The translations under genes were made by a program, and so were the position numbers. The notes under the pieces were generated by a model. That model had not been told where the DNA came from. It searched no databases and saw only the letters and a list, made by a program, of their open reading frames with translations. Shown one piece after another: positions 5,478 to 48,252 of a stretch of 64,000 nt of DNA (position 1 is the first letter of the stretch; each line of letters opens with the position of its first letter). The DNA comes from Bacillus sp. SB49 (GTDB lineage Bacteria > Bacillota > Bacilli > Bacillales > Halobacillaceae). The stretch lies in assembly GCF_000469135.2 (NCBI RefSeq), contig NZ_CP048117.1, positions 1,959,501 through 2,023,500 of the forward strand, read 5' to 3'.

Positions 5478-6575
5478 TCACTGCTGAATCATGACTTCAT
5501 ACTGCTTATCTAATATTTCTTTACTTTCAAGCTGCTCCCGGCTTGTAGCGAAACTTATCCGCAAAACACCGGTGATACCTTCTCTAATTTCAAGAATTTG
5601 AATGTTCTTGATGCTGATCGCATGCTGGGCAAGCAGACCGATCACATGATAGATAGCTCCAGGACGGTCATGGATATCGACATAGATATCGTAAAAGGAC
5701 GGAATTGCTCCTTTTTCACGCACAGGCAGACCATCCCGAAACTGCTTAGCATCAAATAGATAGCGGTATGTTTCTTCTTTCTCTTCGTCTGCTAAGTAGT
5801 TCCGAACCTTTTTCATCTCCTGAATCCAATCGTCAAGCATCGCGAGCAGCAGGGTTCGGTTTTGAAAGAAAATATCCTGCCAAAGCTTCGGGTTGCTGGA
5901 AGCGATCCGCGTAATGTCTTTGAAGCCCCCAGCAGCCAGCTGCTCAAGAAATGGGTGTTTCTCCTGCCAATTTCTCGCCTGATGTACGAGCGAAGAAGCG
6001 ATCAGGTGGGGGAAATGAGAAATGACTGCGGTCATTTCATCATGTTCCTCTGTTGAAAATGTTAAAAAGCGCGCCTGTGTCTCAGAGAATAAATCGATTA
6101 AACGCTCCGCTTCTTCCTCCGTAGCGTGAACGGAAGGCGTAAGGACGTATATCGCATTTTCAAATAAGTGCGGTTTAGCGGCTGTGTACCCCTGCTTGTG
6201 GGAGCCCGCCATCGGATGCCCTCCAACAAAAGAGAGGAGCGGATGGTTCAGCTCATTTGCCGCTGCCAGCACTTGATTCTTTACGGAAGAGACGTCTGTC
6301 ACTAACAGCCTTTTTTTCAGTTGTATATCATTCAATTGTTGAAGGTAATTTATTGTCACGGAAATAGGGGTCGCGAGCACACATACATCCGCCTCTATGG
6401 CTGCTTTCTTAAAATCGGAAGAAGCTTGATGGATGACCCCTTGTTTCAGAGCCATATTTAAGGTGGCTTCATCCCCGTCCACTCCTATTAAGAAGACATC
6501 GTCTTTCTTCGAAATATTCATGGCGAGGGATCCACCGATCAGGCCCAGGCCGACAATCAGTACTTTCTGTTTCAT
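5478..6575 (-). CDS. tyrA: TyrA, prephenate dehydrogenase with ACT domain
   Basis: 365 residues. NAD-dependent oxidative decarboxylation of prephenate to 4-hydroxyphenylpyruvate for tyrosine synthesis. The Rossmann motif GLGLIGGSLA lies near residue 9, the active-site GGHPMAGSHKQGY motif about residue 118, and the helical SHFPHLIASSLV segment follows. The last 70 residues (VDIHDRPGAIYHVIGLLAQH onward) form an ACT domain, consistent with tyrosine feedback control. The gene starts 1 nt after hisC ends and uses GGGGAAG as ribosome site, so hisC-tyrA are coupled. Confidence 0.96.
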   Translation of the reverse strand: MKQKVLIVGLGLIGGSLAMNISKKDDVFLIGVDGDEATLNMALKQGVIHQASSDFKKAAIEADVCVLATPISVTINYLQQLNDIQLKKRLLVTDVSSVKNQVLAAANELNHPLLSFVGGHPMAGSHKQGYTAAKPHLFENAIYVLTPSVHATEEEAERLIDLFSETQARFLTFSTEEHDEMTAVISHFPHLIASSLVHQARNWQEKHPFLEQLAAGGFKDITRIASSNPKLWQDIFFQNRTLLLAMLDDWIQEMKKVRNYLADEEKEETYRYLFDAKQFRDGLPVREKGAIPSFYDIYVDIHDRPGAIYHVIGLLAQHAISIKNIQILEIREGITGVLRISFATSREQLESKEILDKQYEVMIQQ

Positions 6576-6576
6576 A

Positions 6577-7671
6577 TCAAACTTCCCCGGCGGTCAGTTT
6601 CTCTTTGATCGCTTTCTGAACTTCTTCCATATCTTCTTCTTTACCAATGGTCAGACGGATGGTATTAGGAAGACCAAGCGCTTCTCCGGACCGGACTATG
6701 AACCCTTTCGTCAGCAGATGTTCGAACATTTCATCACCACTGCAAGGAAGGTGGATCAACAGGAAGTTTGCCTGAGTATCATAATAGGACAGCCCGACTT
6801 CCTCACAGAATTCTTTTAGAATTTGTTTGTTCTTCCTGTTCTCCTCAACCGTTTCCTGAATGAACTTCTGATCATCCAGAGCGATGATTGCAGCCGCCTG
6901 GGCCACGGTGGAGGTATTAAACGGTTCCCTTGCCGGTTCCAGACTGCGGATAATGTCCGGGTGTGCCACACCGTACCCGATCCTTAAGCCGGCCAGGCCG
7001 TATGCTTTAGAGAAAGTACGTAATATTATAGTGTTGGGGAAACAATCGAGCGCGCTAATAGAGTCGAACGCATCTGCAGCATCCATATATTCAAAGTAGG
7101 CTTCATCAATGACGACCAAAACATGATCCGGACATTTTTCAAGAAGGGCTTCCATCTGATCTTTTACAATATGTACACCTGTAGGGTTGTTCGGAGTACA
7201 GATCCATAATACTCTCGTTTGTTCATCCACCTCTTCAAGCATGCGATCCAGGTCATGATGACCGTCTACAAGAGGAACTTCTCTTACTTCGGCTCCTTCT
7301 ATTAAAGCATTATGACGGTACTGAGGGAACGTAGGAGCCGCCATGACCGTATTCGCTCCGGATTCAAGGAATGTACGGCAGATGATTTGGACAATCTCAT
7401 CCGAACCATTCCCGAAAATCAGTTGTTCCTCATTGACCGCGAGAAACGAAGCAAGTTTTCGACGGATTTCCGCCCCGTAACCATCCGGATAAATCTCCAA
7501 ACCGGAGATAAGCTTCGGGAGCTCTTTTTCCACTTTTGGAGAAAATCCAAATGGATTCTCATTGGAAGCGAGCTTTACGATTCGTTCGAGTCCGTACTCT
7601 TTCTTTACTTCTTCAATCCCTTTTCCCGGTGTATATGGTTTCATGGTTTTCAATATTTCTTTTGCCTTCAT
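6577..7671 (-). CDS. hisC: HisC, histidinol-phosphate / aromatic aminotransferase
   Basis: 364-residue fold-type I PLP aminotransferase. SNENPFG (36-42), CTPNNPTG (158-165), the aspartate in VIDEAYFEY and the PLP lysine K222 in RTFSKAYGLAGLR are present. In Bacillus this enzyme converts imidazole-acetol phosphate for histidine and also aminates phenylpyruvate and 4-hydroxyphenylpyruvate, which explains its place between aroH and tyrA. The ATG lies 4 nt after the aroH stop with its GGAGGAG box inside aroH. In B. subtilis trpEDCFBA lies between aroH and hisC; here nothing does. Confidence 0.95.
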   Translation of the reverse strand: MKAKEILKTMKPYTPGKGIEEVKKEYGLERIVKLASNENPFGFSPKVEKELPKLISGLEIYPDGYGAEIRRKLASFLAVNEEQLIFGNGSDEIVQIICRTFLESGANTVMAAPTFPQYRHNALIEGAEVREVPLVDGHHDLDRMLEEVDEQTRVLWICTPNNPTGVHIVKDQMEALLEKCPDHVLVVIDEAYFEYMDAADAFDSISALDCFPNTIILRTFSKAYGLAGLRIGYGVAHPDIIRSLEPAREPFNTSTVAQAAAIIALDDQKFIQETVEENRKNKQILKEFCEEVGLSYYDTQANFLLIHLPCSGDEMFEHLLTKGFIVRSGEALGLPNTIRLTIGKEEDMEEVQKAIKEKLTAGEV

Positions 7672-43448: not shown

Positions 43449-44537
43449 TCAATTCGGAGCGAGAAGATTAATAACCTCAGGAGTAGGTATAGGGTGACGA
43501 AAATCGTAGGCACCTTTCTCTCGTTCCAGGCCGCTGAACTTCACTTCCCGATAACCGGCTGAAAATGCCGTTGCAAGCAAAGCATCCACCATTTCCCTTC
43601 TTTCCCTTTCATCCTTAAAGGCATGGTGGTCTACATCAAGATACAAACGCTCTTTATCTTCCTTAATGACGGACAAACGAACATGATCTGGAATTGGAGA
43701 CTCAAGCTGTGGAAAAGGAGCATTCTTTCCCATCTCTGTAAGGAGATCCGAAAAGTCTGCATCATCATCTGCTTGTACGGGAGTGAGCAGCGATTTTGTG
43801 GAAGCATCATAGTGATAAATAAGAAAATAATACGTTTCTTCTGAAACTACAGGCAGTTTATCGGTCATACCATAATTACCGATGGCAACCTGTTTCCCGT
43901 CAGAAGTCTTCACATCAACGGAATCTGAGGCATATCCGGATAATTCCCACCTCACACTTTCCACGACAGACCTAGCCCATGAACTCCCGCTGACTTGATA
44001 GTTCTCAGGAAATACCGCTCTCGCTTTCCCATTCTCTTCATCTATCTCGTAATCCACTTCAGGAACGGTACGCGGAGAAAGTCCGAAAGTGTCTGGGTCC
44101 ACTCTCGTTTCTTCGGAAGCGAGTGTGATTGGAATGACGAACTCTCCATTCCTGTCCGGGAAGGCCTGCACCCTCATCCCGGATTTGCGGGTATCTGCAA
44201 CCAGTGACAGTGTATGTGTCGGCATATCCAATCCAGCTCTTTCCAAAACGGGTGGTAATGGGACAAATTCCCCTTCCCTCGTGTCTGTTTGCTGTGCCCC
44301 TTGTTCAGGAAGGGGCTGCAGGCTTTCCTGAACAAACGGGAGAGAGACTGCAAGGAGAGAGAGAACGGTAAGAATAGATAATAGAGGAACAATCCGGTGC
44401 CGCTTCTTCCTCACACCACGATTTATCCTTCTTTCAACAGCGCGGTACACCTCCCCCTGCTCCCTTTTGTCTTCCAAAGAAGGTAACTGAGAAAGCCACT
44501 GCTTCACATCCTGGTCTGATATTTTTTTCTTACTCAA
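43449..44537 (-). CDS. rsiX: RsiX, anti-sigma-X factor
   Basis: 362 residues. A cytoplasmic N-terminal region (about 1-47) that would bind SigX, one membrane helix (about 48-67, VPLLSILTVLSLLAVSLPFV) and a long exported domain. It matches RsiX by position, length and topology. The start is TTG 44537, whose GGAGGAGGAG box is inside the end of sigX; the overlap of 8 nt ties its synthesis to that of SigX. B. subtilis RsiX holds SigX until envelope stress. Confidence 0.87.
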   Translation of the reverse strand: MSKKKISDQDVKQWLSQLPSLEDKREQGEVYRAVERRINRGVRKKRHRIVPLLSILTVLSLLAVSLPFVQESLQPLPEQGAQQTDTREGEFVPLPPVLERAGLDMPTHTLSLVADTRKSGMRVQAFPDRNGEFVIPITLASEETRVDPDTFGLSPRTVPEVDYEIDEENGKARAVFPENYQVSGSSWARSVVESVRWELSGYASDSVDVKTSDGKQVAIGNYGMTDKLPVVSEETYYFLIYHYDASTKSLLTPVQADDDADFSDLLTEMGKNAPFPQLESPIPDHVRLSVIKEDKERLYLDVDHHAFKDERERREMVDALLATAFSAGYREVKFSGLEREKGAYDFRHPIPTPEVINLLAPN

Positions 44538-45066
44538 TGTCTCCTCCTCCTTCCCTCGCTTTTTCTATATGGGTTCTCAAGGCTTTCATACCACGATGCT
44601 GCGTCGTTTTCACTTTGCTTTCACTGAAAGAAAGAGCCTCTGCTGTTTCCTGAATGGACATTCCCTGCATATAGCGGAGTATGAGCACACTCCTCTGATT
44701 AAAAGAACACTTATCCAAAGCTCTGTACATTTCCTTCACCTCTTCGTTCATTACAGCTACTTCCTCAGGCAGAGGGAGACCATCGCGTAAGCTCTCCTTA
44801 TTCTTCGTCCAATCAAATGTTTCTATAATACGATCCCTTTTTCTCTTCTGCTTCCGAAAATAGTCGATGGCCACGTGACGGGCAATGGAAAGCAGCCACG
44901 TCTTTTCTGAGCTTTGCTTTCGAAAGGAATGATAGGATTTTATGACACGTATGTACACTTCCTGCACGAGATCTTCTGCAACAGCACGGTCCTTGACCAT
45001 ATAGATAAGAAATTGAAATAAATCCCGGTGATGTTGCTTATACAGTTCATCAAAGAACGATTTCAA
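44530..45066 (-). CDS. sigX: SigX, ECF RNA polymerase sigma factor
   Basis: 178 residues. Region 2 (FDELYKQHHRDLFQFLIYMV, DLVQEVYIRV, FRKQSSEKTWLLSIARHVAIDYFRK) and region 4 (LDKCSFNQRSVLILRYMQGMS, ETAEALSFSESKVKTTQHRGM) are complete, with no region 1.1 or 3, as in ECF factors. Matches SigX by position beside res genes and rsiX. Start is TTG 45066 with AGGGGG upstream. A sequence typical of a SigX-dependent promoter lies at 45098-45123, so it is probably autoregulated. In B. subtilis SigX controls surface charge genes such as dlt. Confidence 0.92.
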   Translation of the reverse strand: MKSFFDELYKQHHRDLFQFLIYMVKDRAVAEDLVQEVYIRVIKSYHSFRKQSSEKTWLLSIARHVAIDYFRKQKRKRDRIIETFDWTKNKESLRDGLPLPEEVAVMNEEVKEMYRALDKCSFNQRSVLILRYMQGMSIQETAEALSFSESKVKTTQHRGMKALRTHIEKAREGGGDIE

Positions 45067-45140: not shown

Positions 45141-45180
45141 AAAAAAAAAGAAAAAGCTACCCTGTTCTAGGGCAGCTTTC
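45141..45180 (-). terminator. Rho-independent terminator of the cobalamin cassette
   Basis: Minus-strand hairpin AAAGCTGCCCT-loop-AGGGTAGCTTT (45153-45179, one mismatch) then a T-rich run. It separates the ECF S-component gene from sigX. Confidence 0.78.
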
Positions 45181-45691
45181 CTGCTGGGTCCAATCTATGG
45201 TTTGTTAATGGGTAACGTCTGAACAACCGTCCTAATACAGGAGCCATAACAATCAGAAAAACAGTGTTTGAAACCGCATGATTGATGTCCATAGGAATCC
45301 CTGCCAGATAATAGGCCCAGAAGGGCTGTCCTGCGACATGCATCGTGAGAGACAGGACAAAGCCATAGAAGATACCACTCAAAAAACCATATACAGATAA
45401 CAACCATACCGGAAGCTTAGGAAGAATCTTACCTAAGATACCTGCTCCGACACCGATTAAACCCCAGGCTGTTATCTGCCATACGGTCCACATACCCATG
45501 CCGAGGAGGAGGTTGGAAGTCAGTGTCGTTACGAAAGCAACCAGTACACCTCCAACTGGACCCAGCCAAAATCCGGCGATGATAATAATCGCCGTTACAG
45601 GCTGAACATTAGGAATATTGGCAAGAGCCATTCGGCCCGCAACAGCTAATGCTGACAGCATGGCAATCAACGTCAGTTTATATGTGTTCAT
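45167..45691 (-). CDS. ECF transporter S component, predicted cobalamin-type substrate
   Basis: 174 residues, six hydrophobic helices, beginning MNTYKLTLIAMLSALAVAGRMALANIP, typical of ECF S components, with VQPVTAIIIIAGFWLGPVGG and a WTVWQITAWGLIG segment. S components capture a vitamin and share an EcfAAT energising module encoded elsewhere. Substrate is inferred from context: it follows a DUF4430 lipoprotein by 6 nt under a cobalamin riboswitch. Ribosome signal is weak (GGGAATGACC), so its translation is probably coupled to the lipoprotein gene. It is located between resE and sigX, where B. subtilis has nothing. Confidence 0.85.
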   Translation of the reverse strand: MNTYKLTLIAMLSALAVAGRMALANIPNVQPVTAIIIIAGFWLGPVGGVLVAFVTTLTSNLLLGMGMWTVWQITAWGLIGVGAGILGKILPKLPVWLLSVYGFLSGIFYGFVLSLTMHVAGQPFWAYYLAGIPMDINHAVSNTVFLIVMAPVLGRLFRRYPLTNHRLDPAGKLP

Positions 45692-45697
45692 AGTTGG

Positions 45698-46099
45698 TCA
45701 TTCCCACGCATGATAATCGAAGGTAACCTGATCTCCATCTTTCAATTCATAATCTTCTGCGCCGACTTGACCTTCTTCTCCATTGACAGTGTACATCCAT
45801 GCTTTCTTTTCATCGCCTCCAACACCTTCAATGGTGTTGATGAATCCTCCGGACTGTTCCACTTTGAAATTGTCCTCCATCACCTGCATCAGATTCGTAC
45901 CTTCTTCGGCAGTAATCGATTCAGAAGCAATTTCTTCGGCACCATTATCTTGTGAAAGCTCCACCTCTACGGTAATTTCCTGTTCCTGCTGTTCGGTCGT
46001 TTCTGCACTCTTTTCTTCATCTTCCTGCGCGCCGCATCCTGCCAAAACACCGACGGCAAGGAAGGCCGCCATCATCAGGCGATACCATTTCTGTAACAT
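45698..46099 (-). CDS. DUF4430 (transcobalamin-like) lipoprotein
   Basis: 133 residues. Lipoprotein signal peptide with lipobox LAGC (about residues 18-21), then an acidic linker (about 25-45, EDEEKSAETTEQQEQE) and a DUF4430 domain (about 46-133: ITVEVELSQDNG, ITAEEGTNLMQVMEDN, and YTVNGEEGQVGAEDYELKDGDQVTFDYHAWE). DUF4430 resembles the C-terminal beta domain of intrinsic factor and transcobalamin. A cell-surface cobalamin-binding role is inferred from riboswitch and S-component context. ATG 46099 follows AAGGGGAG; the frame opens 38 codons further up into the leader. Confidence 0.83.
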   Translation of the reverse strand: MLQKWYRLMMAAFLAVGVLAGCGAQEDEEKSAETTEQQEQEITVEVELSQDNGAEEIASESITAEEGTNLMQVMEDNFKVEQSGGFINTIEGVGGDEKKAWMYTVNGEEGQVGAEDYELKDGDQVTFDYHAWE

Positions 46100-46147
46100 T
46101 TTTTTCTCCCCTTCTGTCTTTTTGAGGGTTTTGAGTAGCCACAAATA

Positions 46148-46175
46148 AGAGCCTGCCCCTGTTGGGACAAGCTCT
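46148..46175 (-). promoter_or_regulatory. Hairpin between cobalamin riboswitch and lipoprotein gene (candidate attenuator)
   Basis: Perfect 12-bp stem (with two G-U pairs) AGAGCTTGTCCC-AACA-GGGGCAGGCTCT on the minus strand, followed by TATTTG only, a weak T tract. Its GGCAGG is complementary to the CCTGCC of the riboswitch B12 box, so alternative pairing is possible. It could be an attenuator; weak T tract leaves this open. Confidence 0.5.
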
Positions 46176-46255
46176 AAGACGAACCAATAGAAGCGGGACT
46201 GGCCGCCATTCACCGATCGGTTGCCTCAAATACTCAATCCTCGAAGTATTGAAAC

Positions 46256-46414
46256 GCGAGATCAGGCAGGTCTACTGACTCGTGCGTCATCCTTCCAAGG
46301 CTCCTTCCCGTTATCCACAGTGGATCCACCTTTTCGTCGGCACTCACAGTTGCGAGGACAGTTCCGGTTTCCTTACCGGATTCCCATTTTAAGTCTTTCA
46401 GACACCTGAATTCT
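46256..46414 (-). ncRNA. Cobalamin (B12) riboswitch
   Basis: On the minus strand the leader holds the B12 box AGTCAGTAGACCTGCC (complement of 46265-46280) preceded by GATGACGCACG. The upstream core TGGGAATCC, GGAAACCGG, ACTGTCCTCGCAACTGTGAG and CCGACG (about 46335-46390) is that of the AdoCbl/cobalamin aptamer. It starts after the resE stop with a TATAAA -10-like element at about 46418. It would switch off the lipoprotein and S-component genes when cobalamin is bound. Class (AdoCbl or other cobalamin) is not decided. Confidence 0.9.
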
Positions 46415-46473
46415 CATTTTATACAGTTCCTTTTTAAGCGTACACGAAACCGTCACAATTGGCAATAAGGGGA

Positions 46474-48252
46474 TTACCCATGAATGAAAGGGATGCGGAA
46501 GGTAAAGGTCGTCCCTTCCCCAAGCCTGCTGTGGACGCTGATCTCCCCGTCGTGCCCCTCGACGATGTTCTTTGCAATGGCGAGACCGAGACCGGTTCCT
46601 TTCTTATAATCCTTCGTTTTTCGCTTCCTGGATTTGTCCGCCTTATAGAAGCGTTCAAATACAAATGGCAGGTCTTCTTCAGCAATGCCCATACCGCTGT
46701 CGTTTACCGAAGCGACCCAGTCATTCCCGTCTGGAACGACCGTCACATTTACTTCTCCGCCTTCTTCCGTGTGGCGGATGGCATTATCAATCAAGTTCGT
46801 GAACACTTGTTCAATACGATCCGGATCAAAGGTAAGCCTGCCGAGTTCAGGAGCAAGATCAAGCGTAAGGTTCACCTGTTTATCACCTGCCAGACCACTG
46901 AACTTCCGGATAATCTTCTGCATATACGGTCCCATTTCGATCGTATCATGAGCGAGCTGAATATGCCCCGCTTCCATACGGGCCAAATCCAGCAGCTCGT
47001 TGACCAATCTGCCGATCCTGAGGGATTCATCATGAATGATCTGAGCCAGCTCGTTTTTGTCTTCTTTAGTTTCTGCAATATCATCCACAATTGCCTCGCT
47101 GTATCCCTGAAGCATAGAAATTGGAGTGCGTAGTTCGTGCGAAACATTGGCTATAAAATCTTTACGAAGCTTATTTAGTCTCCGTTCTTCCGTCATATCA
47201 CGCAGAACCGCGACGGCGCCACGAACCTTTTCCCTGTCATAGAGAGGGGTCATAATGATCACCCATGAGCGACCTTGTACGGATACTTCCACCATGGATT
47301 CATGTTCCTCTGTTATAACACTTTGAAAGAGCTCTTTTAAAGGCTCCGGCAGACGAAGCTCCTCTTCCTTATCCCGGGACGGATCCCGTTCGAAATCAGC
47401 GGCTTTCAAATACTGCTGGGCTGGAGGGTTCGTTATGAGCACATCTCCTTGACGATTGATGGTTATGACACCGTCCGCCATGGAACGCAGGATCCCTGAG
47501 AGTTGTTCTTTCTCTTGATTCAAAGCATTAATATGAAATTTCAACTCTCTTCCCATCCGATTAAAAGCCATGGCAAGCTCGCCGATTTCATCATGCGTTC
47601 GGATCGGGATTTTCGTATGAAACTCTCCCTTAGCGAGTTCCATAGCTCCCTTTCTCATTTTAATAAGTGGAGCTGTTATTCTCGTAGACAGGAAAAAGGC
47701 AAAAATTGTAGTTAAAATAATCGCGATCCCTGCTCCAAGAAATATGATTTTCGTCGTTTGCTCCGAGGTCTCTTCTACGGTGTCGAGCGATTGATAGACA
47801 AAGACCGCTCCAGAGCTATTCTCAAGAGGTGTTCCAACTACCATCACACCGGAGGCATGCTCCTGCATATCTGCAATCTTTTTGACGTCTTTACCATTTT
47901 CCATAACGGCCCGAAGTTCAGGGTCCTTCCGAAACCACGCATCATCAAGCTGCGGCATCGCTTCGGATTCACTTTCAGCGAAAAGACTGTCGCCGGGTCC
48001 CCAGACAATGACTGCGCTGCTCGCTGGATCTTTAACTAAAATAGTCGATGAAAGCAGAAGGTCTTCATCAGATTCATAGCGGTCGACAACTTGAGAGATC
48101 TTGTCGGCTGTCTGAAGCAGATCGCTTTCCGCTTCGAGTATGTGATAGTTTTGGAAGAACTCAAGCAGCAGAATGGTAAGGATAAAAAGGACGAAGCATA
48201 CAAGCAGGAGGATGGTGAACCAGAGTTTCCCGACAACACTCCGCCAGAACAT
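46474..48252 (-). CDS. resE: ResE, sensor histidine kinase
   Basis: 592 residues. Helix 1 (about 10-31), an extracytoplasmic domain (32-167), helix 2 (168-188), HAMP (about 189-242), a PAS-like domain (about 250-355), then HisKA with phosphorylated H372 in NVSHELRTPISM and a HATPase_c domain with its N, G1 (DSGMGIAEEDLPFVFERFYK) and G2 (GTGLGLAIAKNIV) boxes. With ResD it controls anaerobic and aerobic respiration genes. The ATG overlaps the resD stop (TGATG). It is followed by the cobalamin riboswitch rather than sigX. Confidence 0.94.
   Translation of the reverse strand: MFWRSVVGKLWFTILLLVCFVLFILTILLLEFFQNYHILEAESDLLQTADKISQVVDRYESDEDLLLSSTILVKDPASSAVIVWGPGDSLFAESESEAMPQLDDAWFRKDPELRAVMENGKDVKKIADMQEHASGVMVVGTPLENSSGAVFVYQSLDTVEETSEQTTKIIFLGAGIAIILTTIFAFFLSTRITAPLIKMRKGAMELAKGEFHTKIPIRTHDEIGELAMAFNRMGRELKFHINALNQEKEQLSGILRSMADGVITINRQGDVLITNPPAQQYLKAADFERDPSRDKEEELRLPEPLKELFQSVITEEHESMVEVSVQGRSWVIIMTPLYDREKVRGAVAVLRDMTEERRLNKLRKDFIANVSHELRTPISMLQGYSEAIVDDIAETKEDKNELAQIIHDESLRIGRLVNELLDLARMEAGHIQLAHDTIEMGPYMQKIIRKFSGLAGDKQVNLTLDLAPELGRLTFDPDRIEQVFTNLIDNAIRHTEEGGEVNVTVVPDGNDWVASVNDSGMGIAEEDLPFVFERFYKADKSRKRKTKDYKKGTGLGLAIAKNIVEGHDGEISVHSRLGEGTTFTFRIPFIHG

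Follow-up and report, generated by a model that had tools for sequence, protein, structure and literature searches.

A riboswitch-preceded gene pair of Bacillus sp. SB49 probably forms a corrinoid uptake unit from a transcobalamin-like lipoprotein and a CbrT-family S component

Between a resE-type histidine kinase gene and sigX, Bacillus sp. SB49 carries a cassette of two genes, which encode a lipoprotein with a DUF4430 domain and the S component of an energy-coupling factor (ECF) transporter, preceded by a cobalamin riboswitch. We found that the S component belongs to the cobalamin family, CbrT, that the lipoprotein domain has a predicted fold like that of the animal B12 carriers, and that the two proteins co-occur near-obligately across genomes. 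We consider it very likely that the cassette serves to take up cobalamin, and probably cobinamide too, under cobalamin control, with the lipoprotein supplying CbrT and CbrT working through a shared EcfA1A2T module. Coordinates refer to the whole 64 kb stretch of contig NZ_CP048117.1 that was analysed (the window); L-numbers denote related stretches and G-numbers sampled genomes.

The S component belongs to the CbrT family

A phmmer search of the PDB chain sequences with the window S protein returned, at E values up to 10, a single match: chain 6fnp_A of ECF-CbrT (E 4.3e-20). With a profile of 60 S relatives, 6fnp was recovered at E 8.4e-57, the next best match being RibU at 0.14. Tree building with 57 rows grouped the window protein with four rows of its own bacterial family (98/98). 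Its side of the tree includes a 99% copy of the solved CbrT, and five ThiW rows, one RibU-like row and one BioY-like row lie outside (96/97); L174 and L176, two other outgroup rows with very long branches, group inside, with unsure placement. The window protein is thus homologous to solved CbrT and not to the other S families. On the PDB match, the profile scores and the tree we reject a biotin, thiamine or riboflavin S component, and they support the cobalamin S component that an earlier note on this DNA had proposed.

From its homology to CbrT, the window protein should have six helices. The residues A10-M-L-S-A14, read from the sequence, fit the AxxxA pattern in the first helix of S components, which we take to be the motif contacting EcfT. 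A histidine, H138 (window 45278-45280), is invariant in 60/60 CbrT-type rows and may contact the corrinoid.

A full-length cobalamin riboswitch precedes a compact two-gene unit

The earlier note had listed a cobalamin riboswitch, a DUF4430 protein with a lipobox, an S component and a terminator, and all of these are present where the note places them (Table 1). The aptamer matches RF00174 over its full length, scoring 98.1 bits where the gathering score is 31.5 bits; it lies upstream of both genes on the same strand, and is the sole Rfam match in the window at gathering scores. Between aptamer and lipoprotein gene, a terminator-like hairpin that belongs to the leader fold (z -2.19) is a candidate expression platform. 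The S component starts 6 nt past the lipoprotein stop codon, and the terminator of the unit (-18.2 kcal/mol, z -3.57) overlaps the final codons of the S gene. For the upstream kinase, the name resE rests on position and on the earlier note.

Table 1 Features of the cassette and its flanks in the window
Feature	Position	Strand	Evidence
Cobalamin riboswitch aptamer, RF00174	46248-46424	(-)	cmscan 98.1 bits, E 2.8e-23, model 1-189 of 189
Leader terminator-like hairpin, candidate expression platform	46148-46175	(-)	pattern scan: 12 pairs, weak U tail
DUF4430 lipoprotein, CbrS type, 133 aa	45698-46099	(-)	lipobox by eye; PF14478
ECF S component, CbrT (cobalamin) family, 174 aa	45167-45691	(-)	PF12822 E 3.2e-10; 6fnp_A match; tree
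Intrinsic terminator ending the two-gene unit	45151-45181	(-)	13-pair stem then CTTTTTTTTT (pattern scan)
resE-type histidine kinase, upstream flank	46474-48252	(-)	HisKA, HATPase_c, HAMP and PAS domains
sigX, downstream flank	44530-45066	(-)	NCBIfam SigX, 259.8 bits (cut-off 239)

The lipoprotein carries a domain like the transcobalamin beta domain

The N-terminal signal of the lipoprotein ends in VLAGC (by eye), and the protein matches PF14478 (DUF4430) at E 4.3e-19, with 69.2 bits against a curated cut-off of 23.8, which places it among the DUF4430/transcobalamin-like SLBB proteins. PF01497, the BtuF-type periplasmic-binding domain, gave no match at E values up to 1. The predicted fold of the domain is a beta-grasp, like the beta domain of human transcobalamin, haptocorrin and intrinsic factor, and the model aligned with transcobalamin-type beta domains (bovine and rat entries included) with an rmsd of 1.5-2.3 over 91-96 residues at 14-21% identity. 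Both the sequence alignment and this comparison of predicted folds agree with the stated resemblance of DUF4430 to the C-terminal domain of transcobalamin and intrinsic factor. Unlike the human carriers, the window protein has no alpha/alpha toroid and, judged by its lipobox, is a lipoprotein.

The isolated beta domain of human transcobalamin binds cobalamin, according to the literature. At the hairpin position F86 of the lipoprotein a large residue is kept (F 49, M 5, Y 4, L 1 of 59 rows). In our own reading, based on the alignment and on the part of PMC4350170 consulted, F86 may be the counterpart of the ligand-contact residue Tyr362 of haptocorrin.

The genome encodes a shared EcfA1A2T module and a second B12 importer

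The genome consists of one contig of 3.77 Mb, in which we found EcfA1 (409 bits) and EcfA2 (441 bits), both above their cut-offs, and EcfT (189.8 bits, above the Pfam cut-off of 25; 95.8 bits, below the NCBIfam CbiQ cut-off of 111.8), located downstream of an rpoA-like gene. Only two EcfT matches occur in the genome; neither adjoins the window unit, and the second has its own double ATPase beside it. No dedicated A or T genes stand beside the S component, and since EcfA1A2T is encoded elsewhere in the genome, the S component has a module to use, as the earlier note had supposed. Where there was no family call, the names rpoA, truA, cobU, cobS, ykoE, eutV/W and transposase were assigned by eye.

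Four further cobalamin riboswitches precede metE (L006), an operon with citrate synthase, PrpD and PrpB-like genes (L007), BtuF, BtuC, BtuD/CbiZ and CbiB (L008), and nrdEF (L009), and more cob-type genes were named by eye. The idea that the cassette is an alternative replacing BtuFCD therefore falls, because btuF-btuC-btuD/cbiZ, under its own cobalamin riboswitch, is found in the same genome. The two systems are alike in that each would import cobalamin, has its genes under a cobalamin riboswitch, and pairs an outer binding protein with an inner transporter, but BtuF is a PF01497 protein and BtuC a FecCD permease, and the window unit has neither.

DUF4430 and the S component co-occur near-obligately

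We searched genomes at four taxonomic levels. In the bacterial family, both proteins are present in 42/44 genomes and jointly absent in the other 2, and the DUF4430 domain lies 14-27 nt from the S match in 42/42. The order sample (299 genomes) has DUF4430 in 115, an S match in 118 and both in 114; the class sample (299) has DUF4430 in 104, S in 104 and both in 103; and the phylum sample (299), searched for S with a profile at E up to 1e-8, has DUF4430 in 91, S in 92 and both in 87. The S-only genomes of the order (G060, G061, G176 and G202) are not true exceptions, their proteins being ThiW (PF09512, E 4e-45 to 2e-51), nor is that of the class (G366), which has a riboflavin-type S component (PF07155, E 2e-37). 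Fisher values for co-occurrence run from 1e-84 to 1e-63; they overstate the evidence because the samples share genomes (9 positives are common to order and class) and the genomes are related.

We counted adjacency at the family and order levels. The order sample yielded 117 strong S matches, spread over 114 genomes. In 67 cases a DUF4430 domain lies within 120 nt upstream, in 37 it lies elsewhere on the contig, within 5.4 kb, and for 13 there is none on the contig among the matches listed.

A model for corrinoid capture and its alternatives

In our model, low cellular cobalamin would let the riboswitch permit expression of both genes. The CbrS-type lipoprotein, tethered at the surface, would capture corrinoid outside the cell with its transcobalamin beta-type domain, raising the supply to CbrT in the membrane, which would bind the corrinoid and be energised by the shared EcfA1A2T encoded elsewhere. 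Corrinoid binding and transport by these two proteins in this organism, their contact and the hand-over of cobalamin from lipoprotein to CbrT are steps that we infer.

The closest known system is ECF-CbrT of Lactobacillus delbrueckii (PDB 6FNP; PMC5997447, consulted in part), which transports cobalamin and cobinamide. The purified complex is active in B12 transport, and ECF-CbrT sustains the growth of an Escherichia coli mutant. Its gene order is nrdJ-cbrS-cbrT-pduO. On a contig encoding a CbrT with 99% identity to the 6FNP stretch, the genes run nrdJ, DUF4430 protein, cbrT, pduO; this match makes it most likely that cbrS of L. delbrueckii is a DUF4430 gene. The S-component family is common to both systems, whereas the window pair is riboswitch-controlled, is flanked by resE and sigX with neither nrdJ nor pduO next to it, and shares its genome with BtuFCD. 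L160, titled Faecalicatena absiana, is the contig with the 99% identical CbrT and is probably a contaminating contig or a recent transfer. In L. delbrueckii DSM 20074 (L161:5200-5970), the stretch before cbrT holds only fragments in different frames (by eye), so cbrS and nrdJ look degraded there.

The domain was connected with B12 earlier. The part of Burroughs et al. 2007 consulted (PMC1796856) places these domains and transcobalamin in one SLBB clade, to which the window lipoprotein belongs, cites among the prokaryotic members one from an Oceanobacillus-type genome, and proposes B12 scavenging in low-GC Gram-positives, with operons including CbiO-like ATPases and CbiQ-like membrane proteins. 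That part makes no mention of the S component, the riboswitch or the shared-module form, and it describes the bacteria as usually lacking key B12 synthesis enzymes, whereas the window genome has at least CbiB and CbiZ. Given this proposal and the naming of cbrS, the cassette is a clear member of a predicted kind. Our literature search, with subscription papers mostly outside it, found nothing that joins lipoprotein, S component and riboswitch or that tests the lipoprotein. It returned no paper on an ECF lipoprotein partner (judged by title and start of abstract), none mentioning DUF4430 that concerns bacterial B12 uptake (judged by title), and none pairing transcobalamin with a lipoprotein and an ECF transporter or with prenyltransferase, bacteria or the S-layer.

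Several observations weigh against the uptake model. The window lipoprotein has the beta domain only, versus the two domains that full transcobalamin uses for sub-picomolar binding (PMC5599065). The consulted part of PMC5997447 names cbrS once and makes no use of it, and as purified ECF-CbrT is active with no use of cbrS reported there, the lipoprotein is not strictly required by that complex. Co-occurrence is not the same as adjacency, and G077, G270 and G239 have DUF4430 and S on different contigs. DUF4430 occurs without S in one genome of the order (G094, E 2.9e-9), one of the class (G435, E 4.1e-4) and four of the phylum sample. Conversely, 5 of the 92 phylum genomes with an S match lack a DUF4430 match: G684, G769, G793 (weak, E 7e-10), G854 (63% complete) and G867 (transposase-like genes just upstream, by eye). 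Finally, 13/55 related stretches have no riboswitch match: L124 and L125 (adenosyltransferase clusters), L133 and L134 (one genome, genes apart), L135, L161, L179, L180, L181, L184, L195, L196 and L197.

We weighed three other explanations. The genome could divide its corrinoid pool, with BtuFCD-CbiZ taking cobalamin and the cassette importing another corrinoid such as cobinamide or a different cobamide. BtuFCD-CbiZ and CbiB under a separate riboswitch, together with the further cob-type genes seen by eye, fit such a division, as does the binding of cobinamide by L. delbrueckii CbrT at 36 nM; the same protein, however, binds cobalamin about fourfold tighter (PMC5997447, part consulted), and in relatives the pair stands beside nrdJ and adenosyltransferase genes, which are users of cobalamin. 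We regard this division as rather unlikely. That the S component transports another vitamin, for instance riboflavin or a thiamine precursor, with the riboswitch merely co-regulating it, is highly improbable: general models do match the window protein (PF12822, E 3e-10; PF07155, riboflavin, 4e-9), but its sole match among solved sequences is the B12 S component, the profile separates CbrT (8e-57) from RibU (0.14), and the ThiW and RibU-like rows fall outside in the tree.

The remaining alternative concerns the lipoprotein, which might bind B12 and hold it at the surface, as a store or to deny corrinoid to competitors, with no hand-over and with CbrT working alone. ECF-CbrT does work in vitro without the lipoprotein (PMC5997447, part consulted), and some related operons encode large surface proteins with multiple DUF4430 stretches, with S-layer domains in 2 of the 4 annotated. 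In contrast, DUF4430 and CbrT occur almost exclusively together, and the two-gene unit has a spacing of 6 nt; both points favour a working partnership, and we judge the storage role unlikely.

The putative receptor role of the lipoprotein is the interesting part of the uptake model. That this S family co-occurs near-exclusively with a surface protein of the transcobalamin fold points to a receptor in the B12 branch that was absent from the reconstituted transporter. With just two genes behind a B12 riboswitch, the window cassette offers a simple setting for testing the receptor question, and it links the B12 carriers of animals to bacteria. A broader proposal, which we put forward tentatively and with somewhat less than even confidence, is that DUF4430 lipoproteins of the CbrS type function as outer subunits of ECF-CbrT, capturing corrinoid and delivering it to the S component, that a large ECF branch depends on an extracytoplasmic binding protein, and that the compact pair is the smallest version of a bacterial system that in its larger versions also has a surface alpha/alpha toroid. 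If true, such dependence would contradict the usual definition of the ECF class, and the larger versions would have the same two halves as the animal B12 carriers.

The arrangement between resE and sigX looks old

The earlier note described the cassette as an extra one inserted between resE and sigX. The location is as described, but a recent insertion is not supported: the same gene order occurs in other families of the order, which makes the arrangement look old. Among 51 S-centred stretches (30, including that of the window, came from the family search and 21 from the order search, 3 of the latter also in the family), the order resE, DUF4430, S was found in 51/51 (best-scoring matches) and SigX in 37/51, the stretches ending about 1.5 kb from S. 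The complete order including SigX also occurs in L121, L128, L132, L187 and L188, all from other families. In the congeners G009 and G012, which have no pair, resE is followed directly by sigX at a distance of 149 and 145 nt; this is most simply read as the loss of an old cassette in their line. L188 carries a cobalamin adenosyltransferase gene (6217-6795) between the S component and sigX.

Riboswitches and operon forms in relatives

A cobalamin or AdoCbl riboswitch was found in 42/55 related stretches; by set, the counts are 20/20 (picked from 30 family DUF4430 loci), 8/10, 7/11 and 7/14. Two dedicated DUF4430-ECF operons are preceded by complete cobalamin aptamers in tandem, three in L122:108-1140 (+) and two in L131:661-1224 (+), which suggests a steeper or multi-ligand response.

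Many genomes have a longer S component, in an operon made up of riboswitch, large surface protein, DUF4430 protein, EcfT, double EcfA and S (transporter genes annotated in L120). A third form has nrdJ, S, DUF4430 and adenosyltransferase genes (L124). The longer-S and nrdJ forms occupy a different genomic place from the compact pair.

The large surface proteins contain 5 (L117), 3 (L118), 1 (L120) and 1 (L122) DUF4430 stretches, and three of these four annotated proteins match the Prenyltrans toroid, two having S-layer domains. Very large proteins of 1320-2063 aa are encoded at L117:4702-9363, L118:8370-12332, L119:9394-15585 and L182:8098-13209. In those of L117 and L118, DUF4430 stretches occur together with S-layer domains and a prenyltransferase-like alpha/alpha toroid, an architecture reminiscent of a transcobalamin bound to the wall. 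The protein of L119 has many DUF4430 matches. In L126 (1314-2660), L127 (6546-8027) and L192-L194, a separate toroid-like protein stands beside the DUF4430 protein and CbrT, possibly forming a split two-domain B12 clamp. For a model of the toroid protein (mean pLDDT 66), structure comparison did not separate transcobalamin from terpene cyclases.

The cluster also occurs on plasmids. Of 48 with an S match, the 4 viewed all have DUF4430, B12-dependent reductase and adenosyltransferase genes within about 5 kb; these plasmids, from Lactiplantibacillus, Enterococcus, Lactobacillus and Lactococcus (L156-L159), carry a CbrT cluster. In L189, the pair lies near a eutP/pduV-type gene.
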